Assembly: GCA_002104985.1 (NCBI GenBank)
Contig: MCGO01000052.1
Coordinates: 225,663-289,662, forward strand
Direction: 5' to 3'
Length of the DNA stretch: 64,000 bases
Origin: Rhizoclosmatium globosum
Taxonomy: Eukaryota; Chytridiomycota; Chytridiomycetes; Chytridiales; Chytriomycetaceae
The notes below the pieces were generated by a model, which had not been told where the DNA came from, ran no database searches, and was given only the letters and a program-made list of their open reading frames with translations. Position numbers and translations under genes: made by a program. This document shows positions 7,740 to 23,384 of this stretch, piece by piece; the first letter of the stretch is position 1; the number at the start of each line of letters is the position of its first letter.

Positions 7740-8520
7740 TCCGTTCTACCCTCGTCTATGCACAAGTAAAGGCATGTAGTTCTCTTCTGTTCGTGTCATT
7801 GCTCGCTTCGTTCGCATCCCTAAAACACAATACTCTACGGCACCGCTCGCTTTTGAGTTCATTTCTATTTAAATGATTTTCTCTTCCTGACTTTGTTAGT
7901 TTCTACGTTCGCTGCCCCTCCTTTGTGCTTGTTCCACCAAGTCGCGCCTTTCAGGCGCTCAGTCGTCTTCCGTCTGTTTCACTGCTCGACCTTCCCTTTT
8001 TCAAATGTTTCAGTAGCAACTCTTTCGAGTTCATTTCTATTTAGTTGGGTTCTCTATTGACTTAGGGTTTTCTTGCCCTTCATCCCTCTTGATTCACACA
8101 TTAATTCCAGACTCCATAGCCCTAATTCACAAGTTAAGGCACAGTAACGTCCGTTTCACTGCTCACTCCATTCACCATTCCCAAAAAGCATAGTTCCAAA
8201 AGGTCCCTATGACAAGACAACTCGTTTTTGAATTTATTTCAATTAAATTGATGTTCTCCCTGATTTCGTTTGTTTCATTGCTCGCTGCGCTCGCTCTCCT
8301 CCCTTTTTTGCTTGTTCCAGAATTAACTCCAGATTCCTTCGCGCCTTTCAGGCGCTCAGTCGTCTTCCGTCCGTTTCATTGCTTGTTGCGCTCGAACTTT
8401 TTCTATTTCCCCTGGTTCACGAGTAACTCTACCTATTTAATTCATTTCTATTTTGTTGATTTCTCTCGGAAAGTCGTCGGTTTCACTGCTCGCTACACTA
8501 AATCCCTCCCTGTTTGTCTA
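7740..8520. repeat. Degenerate tandem repeat in a gene-free region
   Basis: The 2-kb gap between the chitinase start (7228) and the LRR gene end (9215) holds no credible gene. Within it, several degenerate copies of a roughly 100-200-bp unit can be seen. One recurring block reads like TTTCAYTGCTCGCT and occurs near 7795, 7978, 8157, 8274, 8377 and 8491. A second block, GCGCCTTTCAGGCGCTCAGT, is at about 7945 and again at 8341, each time followed by CGTCTTCCGTC. A third, ATTTCTATTTAA-like, follows near 7861, 8034 and 8442. The spacing is uneven, so this is an old, decayed array. No transposase is encoded. Confidence 0.55.
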
Positions 8521-9214: not shown

Positions 9215-10480
9215 TCAAATCTGAAAGACAGGACCCAACACAATCCCCTCTCTAGACTCCTCCGACACAGTCAACTGATTAAACCGCAAATCACACTCCA
9301 CCATCTGAGGAACCATGACCAACAATTCCCTCGGAACATCCCCCCACAACAAATTCCCATTCAACTTGAGCTGCGTAAGTCCACCCGAAGTCCCAATTTC
9401 GCGTGGAATCGGACCCGTGAGCCGGTTTCCGTAGAGATAGACGAGATGCAAGTTTCGACAGTTTCTGAAGAGTGATGGCGGGATCTGCCCTGTGAGTGCG
9501 TTATCGCGTAACGTGAGGCGTTGTAGCAGTGTGCAGTTTGAAAGAGCTTCCGGAATGGGACCTGTGAGTTGAGGGGAGGAGTGGAGGTACAAGTATTCGA
9601 GTTTGTGGAGGTTCCCGATTGTAGTAGGGATCGTGCCTGAGAAGTTGTTTGTTTCGAGGTATAGGTGGGTCAGGTTTTTGAGGTTCCCAATGTCGGGGGA
9701 GATTGTGCCTGAGAGTTTGTTTACGGCGAGGGAGAGGAATTTCAGGTTGATGAGAGTGTATAAGGGTTCTGGGATGGAGCCAATGAGGTTTGAGTCTGTG
9801 AGGTCTAGGTGGGAGAGGGTTTGCATGAGGCCGATGAGGGGAGGGATGGTGGATTCAGTGATTAGGTGGTTCCATTGGATTTTGTATGTGGTGTTTAAAT
9901 AGACGGTTGCGTAGATTCTTTGATAGTTTTTTGGCCAGTGGTTCCAGAATAATTTGTCCATGTCAGATTGGGTGTAGGATGCGGCACGAGCTAAGGGGAG
10001 TTCGAGAAAGCGAGTCAAGTTCAGACGCGCGAAATGAAGAGATGACGTGATTCGAGCGTCCATTACACGAGATAGTGCACGGAATCTTATTACGTTCGAT
10101 GGGTGGATCCATGACAGGATCTGCTCAATCAGTTCATCAAAGAGTTTTGGGCTACTTGGAGATTCCGACTTTGCAGGAAGAAAAAAGTAGGAAGGAGAGG
10201 AACAGTGTGAGTTTTGGTCGTTGCTTTGTTTCTTGTTGCTGTTTGTATGAGACCGCGATGGCGTGATGGACATTGGTTGGTGGAGGATGAACGTTCCAAG
10301 GGTGGTTTCACAAGTTGTTTCGGCCGCTTGTGCACTTTGAAGACAAGGGGCGTCCATTGGCTCCACATTAAACAGCTTTAAATTGATATCTTGAGAATGA
10401 GAAGGAAAGGACATGATGGAAGGTACAAAATGATAGACAGTTTTGGAGCAGAAGTCAGAGGAAGGCGATGAAAATCCCAT
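9215..10480 (-). CDS. F-box-like leucine-rich-repeat protein
   Basis: Single-exon protein of 421 aa starting at MGFSSPSSDF. Residues about 110-150 (LFDELIEQILSWIHPSNVI) look like an F-box-type helix motif. From about residue 205 onwards there are some eight leucine-rich repeats of the plant type, LxxLxLxxNxLxGxIPxxIGNL, for example NLTHLYLETNNFSGTIP. There is no signal peptide and no TM segment, so an intracellular adaptor is more likely than a surface receptor. F-box/LRR proteins usually pick targets for SCF ubiquitin ligases, but the F-box call is tentative. The gene is divergent from UTP22, 234 bp away start to start. The repeats are intact and no frame break is seen. Confidence 0.72.
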   Translation of the reverse strand: MGFSSPSSDFCSKTVYHFVPSIMSFPSHSQDINLKLFNVEPMDAPCLQSAQAAETTCETTLGTFILHQPMSITPSRSHTNSNKKQSNDQNSHCSSPSYFFLPAKSESPSSPKLFDELIEQILSWIHPSNVIRFRALSRVMDARITSSLHFARLNLTRFLELPLARAASYTQSDMDKLFWNHWPKNYQRIYATVYLNTTYKIQWNHLITESTIPPLIGLMQTLSHLDLTDSNLIGSIPEPLYTLINLKFLSLAVNKLSGTISPDIGNLKNLTHLYLETNNFSGTIPTTIGNLHKLEYLYLHSSPQLTGPIPEALSNCTLLQRLTLRDNALTGQIPPSLFRNCRNLHLVYLYGNRLTGPIPREIGTSGGLTQLKLNGNLLWGDVPRELLVMVPQMVECDLRFNQLTVSEESREGIVLGPVFQI

Positions 10481-10714
10481 CAAGGTGGCGACAGATCGTC
10501 ACTTGCATTCCCCTTTTTTATTCTTCTTTAATTAAGCTTTTCTCTTTCAGGTTTCCATTGAATAAAGCGGAGAGAAGGAGAACAAGTCCTTTATGCACCT
10601 CTTTTTTTGTTTTTTCTTTTGTGACTGTTTCCTTTGAGCCAACCAACCAACGAACCAACCAACACGCCAACAAAACCCTTTTCCATTCCAAACGAAGAAA
10701 GAAAGAAAGGCACG

Positions 10715-17307: not shown

Positions 17308-20300
17308 ATGGGCAACTACGCTTCCCGAACAGGTGTGTAATATACCTTCTTTCCTGCCTAATTTACAACTCAGGGAACCCCGAATTGGTTGTCACTGTGC
17401 AACCGTATAATGACAATAAGGCTCGAAAGACTATCGTTCTAACTGAAACAACTGTGGATTGTCTGAGAAACAAGGTGGGTTGTTGTACTGCCTCTTCATT
17501 CACTCTGACATTCCACACTTAAGATAATTGAAGTGTTCGGAGAGGATCAAGACTCCGCCCTCCATATCTACTACAGGATTCTCAGAAAGTCCGTCAACAA
17601 CCAATCACGATATCTGCTGTCCAGAAACGCCAATCTTGTTGACATATTTAACGAAGTCGAGACCTTACTGGAAAAGCAGAAACAACTACTCTTTGAGTAC
17701 AATTCATTGTTTGTTGTAGTTATCAGTTCAAAGCATTCTGCTCAACCAGATGTTATTGTTGAGCTTGAAAAAGTCGATATTGTGGCAGAGCTCAAGGAGA
17801 TGGTTTGCTTATAAACTGTTTTTTACTGGCTTCTGATACTTTCGTTGTGTTAGATTGTCGAACATTTTGGTGTTGGTTCCAATGTGCGTATCTACTATCA
17901 AAACTCAGAAACTGACGCAAAGACTATCATTAAAAATGAGAAATCACTTAAACTTGGCCTGATCAACTCGGGTCGTGTTTATTTTGAGCTGTTAGAAACC
18001 AAGACTATTCCTGATGAGATCAAGTTGTCCACTTCTACTGCTATTTCAACCCTTACCCAGCGTGATGCCAAGTCCTACAGAGACTTGGGCTTGTTTATTT
18101 CGTACAATTGGTCTACCAAGCAAAATGTCAATGCTGTGGTGAATAAGCTCAGTGTGCTCAAGCCTGATCTCCCTATTTGGCGTGATACCGAAAAGATGGA
18201 GTCGGATATTTATGACTCGATGGGTTCTGGCATCGCTGGTTGTCAGGTTGTAGTGGCTTGTTTCTCGTTGGGATACTTGGTAAGAACCATCACTGTGTAC
18301 ACACTTTTCATTCACTGTAATTGTAACACACAGGAATCGCCAAACTGCATGCTGGAACTTGGGTTTGCCCAAGATCTCAGAAAACCCATTATTCCAGTGT
18401 TCTTCTTTGAGGAAGGGGAGGATATTACAACTCTCAGACAGAAATACAGCAAGGCTTTTTTGATTATTGCTAGCAAGAAATATTCTGACTTCAAGAGATG
18501 GGATGCACTGGATTCCAACTGGGAAGCTGCTTTTGATATTTTTGTCAAAGAAGTAGAGTGTGCTTTAAACAAGGTTGCCCTATCTGCTGTTGTGGTCCCC
18601 AATAGTCCTTTGGAAGTTTGGCTTGTACCTGAGTCATTTGATGCTGATTTGGAGGCTTACACTTTGGAGTATGTACCAGGAACCTGCTTGTGGATTGTTC
18701 CTGCACTCGAAGCCTGGACCCGAACAAAAGAGCGTGTCATGTACTTGAATGGAGGTGCGGGGACTGGAAAATCTCTTATTGTCTATAGTTTGACCAAGAA
18801 CTTGCCTGGTAACTTTGTCATTGGTGCCCTGTTTATTTGCCGTTACAATAATGTTCGAAAAAGCGACCCCATTGTTCTCGTGAGTACTATTGTGTGTAGT
18901 TTGTGTCTGTCTCTTGGTGGGGCCTACAGACAGTATGTGGAAGTGGAGATGGAGGAAGATTGCGCTCGTGTCAAAGACAAAAAACAAAGCCTTCTCAAAA
19001 CCCCAGTTAAAGCATTCAAGGTGTTAGTGGTGGATGGTCTGAAAAAGTTGTTGGTCTCAGAATGGAAAACCAAAACTCTGTTGATTGTCATTGATGCCTT
19101 GGACGAACTCAACAGGGAGACCCGCCATTCTGTCCTGAAGATTTTGACGACACTGTGTCCCGAGCTCCCAGGCTTTGTCAAGATTGTAACAACAGGTCGT
19201 CCTGAATGTGACATTTACTATGCATTGCAAGAACTCAGCCCTTTTGTTTTGAGGCCTGGTGACAACAACAACACAGCTGATTTGCAAGTGTTTGTCAAGT
19301 ACCGATTACAGGCTTTGTGGGGGTTGATTCTGCAAGGCACTGATGCAGAGAAGTGCTGTGAAGCTCTGGTGGAAAAGGCAGATGGTCTTTTTATCTATGC
19401 TCGTAACGTCTGTGAATATATCAAGAAACAGAACTTGGACCCCAAGCAAGCTCTTGTTGACGTAGAAGCCCTCACTTCTGGATCAGATGGTGTTTATAGA
19501 GCCATTATTGAGCGTGAGCTTCAAACCAACAGAGCAGAGAGACTGGCTCAGTTCAAGTGCGTCTTTGCTGTTTTGTTCACTGCCCAAAGACCTTTGACCT
19601 TGGGAAGTTTAGCCAATATTGGTGGATTGGACATTTGTAATGTTGAATCTGTAGTTTCAGAGGTATTTACTTGTTGATGGCTGTGCTTTGGACTGACAGT
19701 TCTTAGTTCCGATCAATCCTCAAAATTGAACATGGAGGGATTGTCTCTGCTATTCACAAGAGTGTAAAAGATTTTTTCACAGACTTCACTCGTTGTGGAG
19801 GAGAATTGTTCATCCACACTGTAGATGCCAGTCTTGCAGTTTGTTGTCTCCAGATTTTGATTTCCAATTTGAGTCACAATATGGCACATCTAGATCCTGC
19901 AAAGTTTTACAGCAAAGATGAGCTGGCACAACTAACAGTTTTGAATGAAGATTTTCAGTATGCTGTATTGTTTTGGGCCTCTCACTTCAAACTTGGCTTC
20001 TCAAAGGCTTCAGTGGTTGATCAACAGGCAATCATCAAGTTACTATACGAATTTTGTACCAAAACCCTCCCTTACTACCTTGAGGCACTTCTATTAGTTT
20101 CTAAATTGAATGATGTCTTTCCAATGGTTCACTCTGTTTCTGACATATTGTCTGGTTTCACTCACATAGAGGAAGTCAAGACAGTGCTATCGTTGCTGAA
20201 TGATCTGAAATTTGTGGCTGTCAATTTCCGTACCCAATTATTGGCAAGTCCACTCCAAGTCTACAACCATGCCTTAATTGCAGTGCCTCTAGAAACCAAG

Positions 20301-22073
20301 TATTACTGTCTGTATCAGGGTCTTGCACCTGCCCGCAGAACTATTGGTGCAGAAAAAGAGTGGAGTCTTTTCACACTTCTTGGCCACTCCAATAATGTGC
20401 GTTCAGTGGCATACTCTCCTGACTCCCAGACTGTGGTTTCTGGTTCAAGTGACAATACAGTCAAATTATGGTCAGTGGAAACTGGGGAATGTGTCAAGAC
20501 CCTTGTTGGGCATTCTGGCTGGGTGAATTCAGTGGCATTCTCGCCTGACTCCATATTTGTGGTTTCTGGATCACGTGACAATACAGTCAAATTGTGGTCT
20601 GTGGAAACAGGAGAATGTGTCAAGACCTTTGTTGGGCATTCTAGCAGTGTGGATTCAGCGACATTCTCGCCTGACTCCAAATTTGTGGTTTCTGGATCAA
20701 ATGACAAAACAGTCAAATTGTGGTCAGTGGAAACTGGGGAACTCTCCAAGACTCTTGTTGGGCATTCTGGCTGGGTGTTTTCAGTGGCATTCTCGCCTGA
20801 CTCCATGACTGTGGTTTCTGGATCAGCAGACAAGACAGTCAAATTGTGGTCTATAGAAACTGGAGAATGTGTCAAGACCTTTGTTGGAAATGCTAGCAGG
20901 GTGATTTCAGTGGCATTCTCACCTGACTCCAAATTTGTGGTTTCTGGATCAGATGACAAGACAGTCAAATTGTGGTCAGTGGAAACTGGGGAACTCTCCA
21001 AGACTCTTGTTGGGCATTCTGGCTGGGTGTTTTCAGTGGCATTCTCGCCTGACTCCAAGACTGTGGTTTCTGGATCAGCAGACAAGACAGTCAAATTGTG
21101 GTCTGTGGAAACTGGAGAATGTGGCAAGACCTTTGTAGGAAATGCTAGCAGGGTGAATTCAGTGGCATTCTCACCTGACTCCAAATTTGTGGTTTCTGGA
21201 TCAGATGACAAGACAGTCAAATTGTGGTCTGTAGAAATTAGGGAACTCTCCAAGGCACTTAAAGGGCATTCTGAAGGAGTAAGGTCTGTGGCATTCTCAC
21301 CTGACTCCATATTTGTGGTTTCTGGATCAAGTGACAATACAGTCAAATTGTGGTCTGTTGAAACTGGGGAAATCTCCCAGACCCTTGTTGGACATTCCAA
21401 TAGTGTGAATTCAGTGGCATTCTCGCCTGACTCCAAGACTGTGGTTTCTGGCTCAGCAGACAAGACAGTCAAATTGTGGTCTGTGGAAACTGGGGAACTC
21501 TTCAAGACCCTTGTTGGACATTCCAATAGTGTGACATCAGTGTCATTGTCACCTGACGGCAACACTGTGGTTTCTGGATCAGATGACAAGACAGTCAAAT
21601 TGTGGTCCGTTGAAACTGGGGAATGCTCCAAGACCCTTGTCGGGCATACTTTATTTGTGAATTCAGTGGCATTCTCACCTGACTCCATATTTGTGGTTTC
21701 TGGATCACGTGACAATACAGTCAAATTGTGGTTTGTGGAAACCGGGGAACTCTCCAAGACCCTTAAAGGGCATTCTGAAGGAGTAAGGTCAGTTGCATTC
21801 TTGCCTGACAGCAAAACTGTGGTTTCTGGATCAGTTGACATGACAGTCAAATTGTGGTCTGTGGAAACTGGGGAATGTCTTGAAACACGTGATTGGGATG
21901 GAATTGATGTTCGAGACACATTCTTTCCCTCAGAGTTGACTGTTCAGGATGGTTGGATATGCTTTGACAAGATACTGTTGTACTTCATTGGCCGAAATAT
22001 TAATGGATTTTCAGAGTCATCTGTTTCTTGGCACATGGCAAACAATGTATTTTGCCTTACTCTCAAAAATTAG
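17308..22073 (+). CDS. TIR-NACHT-WD40 NLR-like receptor with twin N-terminal beta-grasp-like modules
   Basis: Predicted intracellular STAND receptor of 1508 aa. Exons: 17308-17332, 17374-17474, 17524-17802, 17854-18279, 18334-19662, 19707-22073. The N-terminus MGNYASR has a myristoylation-like Gly-2. Residues ~13-102 and ~103-185 look like two copies of one ~80-residue module (compare RNKIIEVFGEDQ...IYYR with KEMIVEHFGVGS...IYYQ). A TIR domain spans ~212-345 (LGLFISYNW); E285 in SPNCMLELGFAQ fits the catalytic Glu of NAD-cleaving TIRs. The NACHT core has Walker A GGAGTGKS (417-424) and Walker B LLIVIDALDEL (~526-536). A winged-helix-like region follows, then 12 WD40 repeats (947-1450) and a short tail. 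By analogy with fungal NLRs, ligand binding by the propeller would drive oligomerisation and TIR activity. Function in immunity or allorecognition is inferred. Confidence 0.9.
20385..21896 (+). repeat. Twelve 126-bp WD40-encoding tandem repeats
   Basis: Each unit encodes 42 residues with the frame SVAFSPDS...VVSGS-DxTVKLWSVETGE. Adjacent and alternate units are nearly the same at the DNA level (units 4 and 6, and 5 and 7, are the closest pairs), so the array has been recently duplicated or homogenised. Differences cluster at a few positions on the propeller surface. The repeat also keeps the antisense strand open for 534 codons, which is a by-product. Confidence 0.9.
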
Positions 22074-22335: not shown

Positions 22336-22528
22336 TTGTGAGGGGAGCCCCAAATGGATTTTGGGGATTTTGTTTCCTCCCCCTTTGTACACCGTTCACC
22401 GTATTTAGTGTCCATGAATAATTAGTGTCGATTCGTAATTAGTGTCATCGACACTATTTCATGTGTAGATTAGCCAACTGCCCATTCCAGCAAAAATGGA
22501 CACTTATTTATGTGTAAACGTCTCATCT

Positions 22529-22810
22529 TTATTTAAGCTCATTCAACTTTTGTTTCATAACGTCATCCATAGTAATAAAGCGAGTGTCTGCAAGTAAAAC
22601 TTCTGCACAATCAAACTTCTTTTCGTTCATCAACTCAGACACAATGCCAATGAAACCCAAGTATTTGTCTTCCCCGTTTTGTTCCAAATCAAACAGTTCA
22701 CGCGCAAGCATTCCAACATGGTAACGCTTTTGTCCAGAAACGTCAACACGCCAAGCCTTGATGCAAGGAAGTCTTCTGCCCATTGGGGAAGCATATGTTG
22801 ATCGAATCAA
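22529..22810 (-). CDS. Hypothetical frame in the left half of the inverted-repeat element
   Basis: A 93-residue frame without recognisable domain, mixed charged and hydrophobic, ending KQKLNELK. It starts 12 bp from the opposed right-half frame and lies inside the element. It may be a piece of a former transposase gene that was inverted, or a small accessory protein. No splice sites that would extend it convincingly were found. Confidence 0.3.
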   Translation of the reverse strand: MIRSTYASPMGRRLPCIKAWRVDVSGQKRYHVGMLARELFDLEQNGEDKYLGFIGIVSELMNEKKFDCAEVLLADTRFITMDDVMKQKLNELK

Positions 22811-22822
22811 GAGAATGTAGTC

Positions 22823-23203
22823 GTGAAGTGCAAGGGAAATGCCAAAAAGCTTGACATGTTGGAAAAAGAATATGTTTCAGAAGCGTCTGGAAAGTTGAAC
22901 AATCCGGGAAAGCCTTTTTTCTTGAAGACAGCAGCAAAGGTGTTTCTGGATGCCAACAAGGCCATTGATTTGAATGGGATGAACTATGCAAGGAAATCCA
23001 TGATTCGGTGCAGCCTGAGTTTGGATAACGGCAACTGGACGGAAGAAATGCTATCAAAACCACTTCAGGAAATAATCAATAAGTTCCGTGAAAGCTTTGA
23101 TGGAAAACCTGTGGATGAAGTGGTGGAGGATGGGGATACAGCTTCAGAAGATGGTGTTGATGAAGACAGCGTCGAGTCTGATGGAACCGGGGAAGATGCT
23201 TGA
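22823..23203 (+). CDS. Hypothetical frame in the right half of the inverted-repeat element
   Basis: A 126-residue frame, open without a stop into the middle of the element upstream of its first ATG. It is lysine- and asparagine-rich at first, then has an acidic tail (DGDTASEDGVDEDS). It has coding-like composition but no family was recognised. Its position next to an opposed frame suggests a rearranged remnant of a larger element gene. Confidence 0.35.
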   Translation: MKCKGNAKKLDMLEKEYVSEASGKLNNPGKPFFLKTAAKVFLDANKAIDLNGMNYARKSMIRCSLSLDNGNWTEEMLSKPLQEIINKFRESFDGKPVDEVVEDGDTASEDGVDEDSVESDGTGEDA

Positions 23204-23384
23204 AGTGTATGTTAAGCTGTTTCATCTGTGTTGACTTTTTATTAAATGATTTTACTTGAACATAATTTAGTGTCCATTCATAATTAGTGTCGACGACACT
23301 ATATCCTGTGCTGACCCACTTACCAAGGGGTTTTGGTAGACACAGCAAATAGTGTCGTCGACACTAAATACGGAGAACGGCGTA

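Follow-up and report, generated by a model that had tools for sequence, protein, structure and literature searches.

A candidate TIR-NACHT-WD40 receptor with paired front modules in the chytrid Rhizoclosmatium globosum

Can a fungus carry a receptor built around a true TIR domain, and would that domain cleave nicotinamide adenine dinucleotide (NAD)? The question is raised by one gene of the chytrid Rhizoclosmatium globosum, located at 17308..22073 on the forward (+) strand of a 64,000-nucleotide stretch (the window) at one end of the 289662-base contig C369, in a genome of 56.9 Mb. Removal of five GT..AG introns joins its six exons into a single reading frame that stays open for 1508 codons, between the ATG at 17308 and the stop at 22073. 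The predicted protein is organized, in this order, as an MGxxxS start, two tandem beta-grasp-like modules, a TIR domain, a NACHT ATPase and twelve WD40 repeats. An N-terminal effector and a C-terminal repeat sensor are combined on one chain, as in NOD-like receptors (NLRs) and other signal transduction ATPases with numerous domains (STAND). The protein is probably an NLR anchored to a membrane, which would assemble when it recognizes its target and would then cleave NAD. All features given below lie on the forward strand unless stated otherwise.

The TIR domain and the NACHT ATPase

The TIR domain (residues 210-360; 18076..18582) is split by intron 4 (18280-18333). When this intron is read through, the frame matches the Pfam family TIR_2 of the STIR clan with 34.9 bits, against a cut-off of 28. 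The structure predicted for the domain is a TIR fold, and it matches solved TIRs well; plant RPP1 is the top Foldseek match, and SARM1 is among the tied best structural matches. At the sequence level, Cat1 and RPS4 head the matches to the TIR profile, with TIR-1 and MyD88 behind them. The codon at 18355..18357 encodes E285, the predicted catalytic glutamate, which aligns with the glutamates of RPS4 and TIR-1. Both of these are NAD-cleaving TIRs (TIR-1 is also named so in the match listing). E285 is conserved in all 27 TIR-NACHT loci examined. A sequence-only reading of the window had assigned both a TIR domain and the glutamate expected of NAD-cleaving TIRs, and both assignments are borne out. 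In the passages of PMC7282519 that deal with it, E88 of RPS4 (4C6R) is termed putative catalytic; the RPS4 glutamate aligned with E285 is presumably this residue.

Intron 4 lies just 5' of the stretch with E285, and its 54 bases are readable through in frame. A regulated isoform made by read-through was considered and rejected. A GT..AG intron is found at this place in 24 of the 27 loci examined (two have no intron and one is not placeable), and only seven of the 24 introns have a length divisible by three, two of them open: that of the window and that of the copy on contig C13. The intron of the copy on contig C412 has 53 bases, and the protein P0021 of Physocladia obscura contains a 16-residue insertion at this place that reads like an unspliced intron. 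Intron 4 is an ordinary intron.

The NACHT ATPase (18679..19200) was recognized by Pfam, run on the two long exon frames, as NPHP3_N (63.6 bits; cut-off 24.8) and as NACHT (29.6 bits; cut-off 26.7). Its Walker A (GGAGTGKS, 18751-18774) and Walker B (LLIVIDALDEL, 19078-19110) motifs are both intact and lie at the positions claimed for them in the sequence-only reading. The TIR-NACHT frame gave 10 Pfam families up to E 1, none of them HET, and neither NB-ARC nor leucine-rich repeats (LRR) appeared in the Pfam lists, which for the exon-6 frame cover the top 25 of 62 entries.

The TIR and NACHT parts are under purifying selection. The ratio of nonsynonymous to synonymous substitution rates (dN/dS) of their codons is 0.12-0.25 against the paralogues on contigs C81, C420 and C366, at dS values of 0.8 to 2.6 that are partly near saturation. 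The NACHT part gave 0.14 against L016 at a dS of 2.3, and dS was saturated for L020 and L021. Against its nearest copies, the window gene shows a dN/dS of 0.07 in 196 codons (C412) and of 0.16-0.17 (C13).

Among the matches listed, the best non-fungal TIR match is P0027 of the tunicate Clavelina, which has three TIR_2 stretches and a motif pattern similar, by eye, to that of the chytrid TIRs. One degenerate pattern run on genome contigs gave 28 matches and no relative of the TIR, a result that does not exclude a bacterial origin.

The WD40 repeats

A conserved post-NACHT region (residues 721-938; 19707..20360), found by tblastn in the paralogues and free of WD40 repeats, is followed by twelve WD40 repeats (residues 939-1442; 20361..21872). 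Each is exactly 42 residues long, the mean pairwise DNA identity is 0.80, and Pfam counts twelve stretches with 491.5 bits in all (cut-off 27). The repeat number given in the sequence-only reading stands; its single 12-repeat propeller is less certain, as twelve repeats do not necessarily form one propeller.

A diversification pattern is observed in the WD columns. Columns 12, 14, 30 and 32 together have, in the window gene, a ratio of nonsynonymous to synonymous differences per site (pN/pS) of 2.03 versus 0.53 elsewhere, and over 64 repeats a ratio of 1.59 versus 0.53. These repeats come from 13 of the 18 sources examined, five with fewer than three recognised repeats having been dropped. The sources are partly kin (L013/L017 and L030/L031 look like copies of each other) and include two close copies of the window gene (L019 and L041), so they are not independent. 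In the passages of PMC1805685, Paoletti and others describe codons 7, 9, 25 and 27 of the Podospora repeats as being under positive selection; the codons are paired, each pair flanking a conserved one, and map to the top of a modelled propeller. The chytrid pairs 12/14 and 30/32 flank the invariant V13 and D31. Because they flank an invariant residue at the same spacing of 18, we read them as the likely equivalents of the Podospora positions; their place on the fold and a role in binding would follow by analogy. Random four-column sets reach the entropy of this set in 0.018% of draws, a figure that is not a clean test because the columns were matched to the Podospora paper by spacing after the entropy table was known.

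The front end

The N-terminus, MGNYASRT, has the MGxxxS form with Gly2 and Ser6 present, and Gly2 with Ser or Thr at position 6 is the rule for N-myristoylated proteins. This form recurs in 12 of the 17 loci scanned, several of them copies of one another, and also opens the annotated proteins P0003, P0007, P0015, P0018 and P0020. The scan accepted only certain third residues and required a basic residue after position 6; in the five loci without a match (L012, L014, L024, L026 and L038), the first exon possibly lies outside the scanned stretch. The myristoylation-like character suggested for this N-terminus thus fits the motif.

The start is followed by module 1 (residues 12-103; 17382..17706, split by intron 2 at 17475-17523) and module 2 (residues 104-185; 17707..18003, split by intron 3 at 17803-17853). 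Their profiles, built from 7 and 12 sequences (P0003, with an insertion, and P0020, which is cut, were excluded from the module 1 set), were compared with hhalign. The local alignment has a probability of 91, an E of 1e-6 and 20% identity, and the global one a probability of 64 and an E of 9e-6. Introns 2 and 3 fall at the identical aligned column, after TVDCLRNK and IVAELKEM, both in phase 0. Because of this sequence likeness and the common intron position, the modules have probably arisen by tandem duplication, and their description as two copies of one N-terminal module appears justified.

In the AlphaFold model of the relative P0007, both modules have the order strand-strand-helix-strand-strand-helix-strand (block predicted local distance difference test score of 68-86), which is that of the ubiquitin and PB1 folds. 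Foldseek found linear di-ubiquitin (3b08) at E 2.8e-4, the aligned range not being printed. Membership of the PB1 or ubiquitin Pfam families was tried and rejected, as no family, these included, was above cut-off in four module pairs; UBL_UBAC1 (17.3 bits; cut-off 27) and UN_NPL4 (14.1 bits; cut-off 21.9) appeared as hints below threshold. The modules are described here as beta-grasp-like, without assignment to a named family. No paper on the chytrid front end was found via N-myristoylation in open-licence PMC papers, the beta-grasp pair itself not being among the search subjects.

The gene family and its turnover

A search of the R. globosum genome with exon 5 gave 69 matches in 48 NACHT loci, the window gene's included. 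Directly upstream of 36 of the 48, second copies counted, lies a TIR_2 match; the whole genome has 92 such matches. Certain family loci duplicate each other, and stops occur in some. Relatives outside R. globosum were found, among the matches listed, in R. hyalinum, Rhizoclosmatium sp. JEL0117 and Physocladia obscura. The Physocladia protein P0021 is 30% identical over residues 1-720 and, by alignment, keeps both front modules, the TIR and the NACHT; the truncated C-terminus gives no match to WD40 and looks by eye like ankyrin repeats. There is a hint of subtelomeric clustering, with 11 of 27 loci less than 15 kb from a contig end versus 4.75 expected (p 0.0014), for a distance picked after seeing the table, loci that include second copies, and contig ends that are not telomeres. 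In the searches of open-licence PMC papers, none on the size or selection pattern of the family in chytrids was met.

The upstream flank and the start of the window gene recur on C412 with 92-94% likeness, in a copy that is split in its NACHT exon by a 9.1 kb insertion (C412:8963-18035, L042). The insertion ends in TG..CA, a GGGG repeat lies at the target, its two terminal repeats of 326 bases are 100% identical, and its frame of 1766 residues encodes reverse transcriptase, RNase H and integrase zinc-binding domains. It is a very young long terminal repeat (LTR) retrotransposon. The same frame also has an endonuclease/exonuclease/phosphatase domain before the reverse transcriptase, which is odd for an LTR element. 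In the annotation, the 3' half of the split copy appears as a WD40 protein of its own, P0008. Frame changes are present in exon 4 of the C412 copy and in the NACHT exon of the C13 copy, whereas the window copy is intact.

Other TIR arrangements were seen in the genome. Two adjoining TIR frames, one with two TIR stretches, lie at C201:155624-163852 (L001, L002), and no NACHT was found in either. At C161:8807-9127 (L009), a frame joins a PH domain to a TIR and is possibly a lipid-binding TIR adaptor; a similar match lies at C389:49086-49406 (L010), only L009 having been scanned. At C112:918849-924838 and at C55:49939-55892, on two contigs that mirror each other, four TIR matches follow one another at intervals of about 2 kb. 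HET-domain matches at 17 places put HET and TIR side by side in one fungal genome. Among the database proteins matched, P0024 from ENA (2081 residues) has an NHL-like front followed, by eye, by alternating kinase and TIR segments, two of each.

Gene model and surroundings

An in-frame stop lies 138 bases 5' of the ATG at 17308, with no in-frame ATG in between. The exons were placed by the splice model, and the same borders are seen in the paralogues compared. Exon 1 (17308..17332) encodes the MGNYASRT start, for which the MGxxxS start of relatives is further support. Exon 2 (17374..17474) covers residues 9-42, exon 3 (17524..17802) residues 43-135 and exon 4 (17854..18279) residues 136-277. 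The second half of the TIR and the NACHT are encoded by exon 5 (18334..19662; residues 278-720), and the post-NACHT region, the WD40 repeats and a tail by exon 6 (19707..22073; residues 721-1508 and the stop). Introns 1 to 5 measure 41, 49, 51, 54 and 44 nucleotides. The single gene combining all these parts, as first proposed, agrees with this spliced frame and with the annotated relatives P0016 and P0018, which are single proteins. The gene may be absent or split in the public annotation, because no C369 protein was among the matches listed (7994-7998 candidates with the most shared words were scored, and protein length also limits the candidates).

On the 3' side of the gene, a multi-copy repeat at 22388-23384 of the window is matched on many contigs. 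A leucine-rich-repeat frame lies nearby at 9218-10483 on the reverse (-) strand.

Comparison with known receptors

The Podospora anserina HNWD proteins (het-e, het-d, het-r) share with the chytrid gene an N-terminal effector, a NACHT and near-identical WD40 repeats, with the most diversifying codons at the same spacing. However, HNWD proteins have HET at the effector place, where the chytrid gene has TIR_2, and they lack its extra front of MGxxxS start and two beta-grasp-like modules. The chytrid receptor may work like HNWD by analogy, but is not classed there because no HET domain was found.

In the plant TIR-NLRs (RPP1, RPS4, RUN1, Roq1), a TIR is likewise followed by a STAND ATPase on one chain; RPP1 and RPS4 are also those linked to the chytrid TIR by fold and aligned glutamate, respectively. 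The plant proteins have NB-ARC and LRR, in contrast to the NPHP3_N-type NACHT and WD40 of the chytrid, whose TIR is not at the extreme N-terminus. SARM1 and Caenorhabditis elegans TIR-1 are ARM-SAM-TIR proteins that resemble it in TIR fold (SARM1) and aligned glutamate (TIR-1), but have neither NACHT nor WD40.

Amphioxus has TIR-NACHT and TIR-NB-ARC-WD40 proteins, according to the passages of PMC2575513. Compared by description only, these share the TIR, the ATPase and, in one type, WD40 in the same order; they are animal proteins, and the front end is not described in those passages. TIR-NLRs of Chytridiomycota are mentioned in one clause of PMC9815663, and in all likelihood these coincide or overlap with the family described here. 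A fungal TIR-NACHT-WD40 with this front end was called unfamiliar in the sequence-only reading; chytrid TIR-NLRs are already in print, while the front modules, the family size and the selection pattern are absent from the passages of that source.

Proposed mode of action and alternatives

In the proposed mechanism, an N-myristoylated glycine would anchor the receptor to the membrane, as its motif suggests. The WD40 array would bind a variable target via the propeller top face, and binding would lead, as expected from the family, to nucleotide exchange in the NACHT and to oligomerisation. E285 of the assembled TIRs would then cleave NAD, and lowered NAD or a nucleotide signal would cause cell death or arrest. 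The beta-grasp-like pair would probably form a platform for protein binding or for stacking that sits between membrane and TIR, the weakest step of the scheme. The suggestion of an innate immune or allorecognition receptor acting through NAD depletion or a nucleotide signal, made in the sequence-only reading, is supported to this extent.

Some findings speak against parts of this scheme. The scaffold TIRs MyD88 and IL-1RAcPb tie with SARM1 in structure; because of this tie, the TIR fold alone is no proof of catalysis. Two of the nine genes with at least four repeats (on C420 and C366) reach a pN/pS of only 1.04 in the WD columns. In the window gene itself, column 32 is outside the seven most variable columns, and columns 11, 3, 2 and 24 are inside.

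Most animal TIRs are recruiting scaffolds, and the chief rival is that the chytrid TIR would likewise recruit other TIR proteins, its glutamate being kept for structure. The structural tie and the presence of MyD88 among the profile matches agree with this; moreover, only 36 of the 92 TIR_2 matches are directly 5' of a NACHT, so that other TIR proteins exist, including the PH-TIR and double-TIR frames. We nevertheless consider a scaffold unlikely, as a glutamate kept in every one of the 27 loci examined is beyond what a scaffold is expected to need, and as Cat1 and RPS4 rank above TIR-1 and MyD88 as profile matches, RPS4 and TIR-1 being NAD-cleaving.

Somewhat less likely again is an allorecognition rather than a defence receptor, which would sense host protein variants after fusion or mating. 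WD40 domains decide het-e/het-c recognition, as stated in the passages of PMC12881547, in line with such a role. The diversifying WD codons are also spaced as in het-d/het-e. The occasion is doubtful, however, since to our knowledge chytrids of this kind have no fusing hyphae. That the locus is a decaying family member without present function, as its broken nearest copies and the lack of a C369 annotated protein among the matches listed might suggest, is improbable given a frame open over 1508 codons and the low dN/dS against those very copies.

The membrane-anchored, NAD-cleaving receptor remains the favoured reading. A wider proposal is put forward more tentatively, at somewhat less than even confidence: Rhizoclosmatium-Physocladia chytrids would run a large, diversifying repertoire of membrane-anchored TIR-NLRs. 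The link from membrane to TIR would be a duplicated beta-grasp pair belonging to a family without a name as yet, and WD40 recognition would drive NAD-based signalling or death.

Significance

In the passages of PMC13142454, fungal TIRs in EukProt were found only in R. globosum, very few having been reported before. R. globosum has 92 TIR matches and 36 TIR-NACHT loci in a group reported as nearly TIR-free, with the selection marks of a recognition system. This raises three questions: do true TIR enzymes act in fungal signalling, did HET assume the role of a TIR in ascomycetes, and was the WD40 face recruited as a sensor twice or retained since an early fungus? If the gene is a membrane-anchored immune receptor, chytrids would be a place to study TIR immunity within fungi. 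The wider repertoire, if it exists as proposed, would be the fungal counterpart of the plant TIR receptors, and its true TIR would do the job that HET does in ascomycetes.

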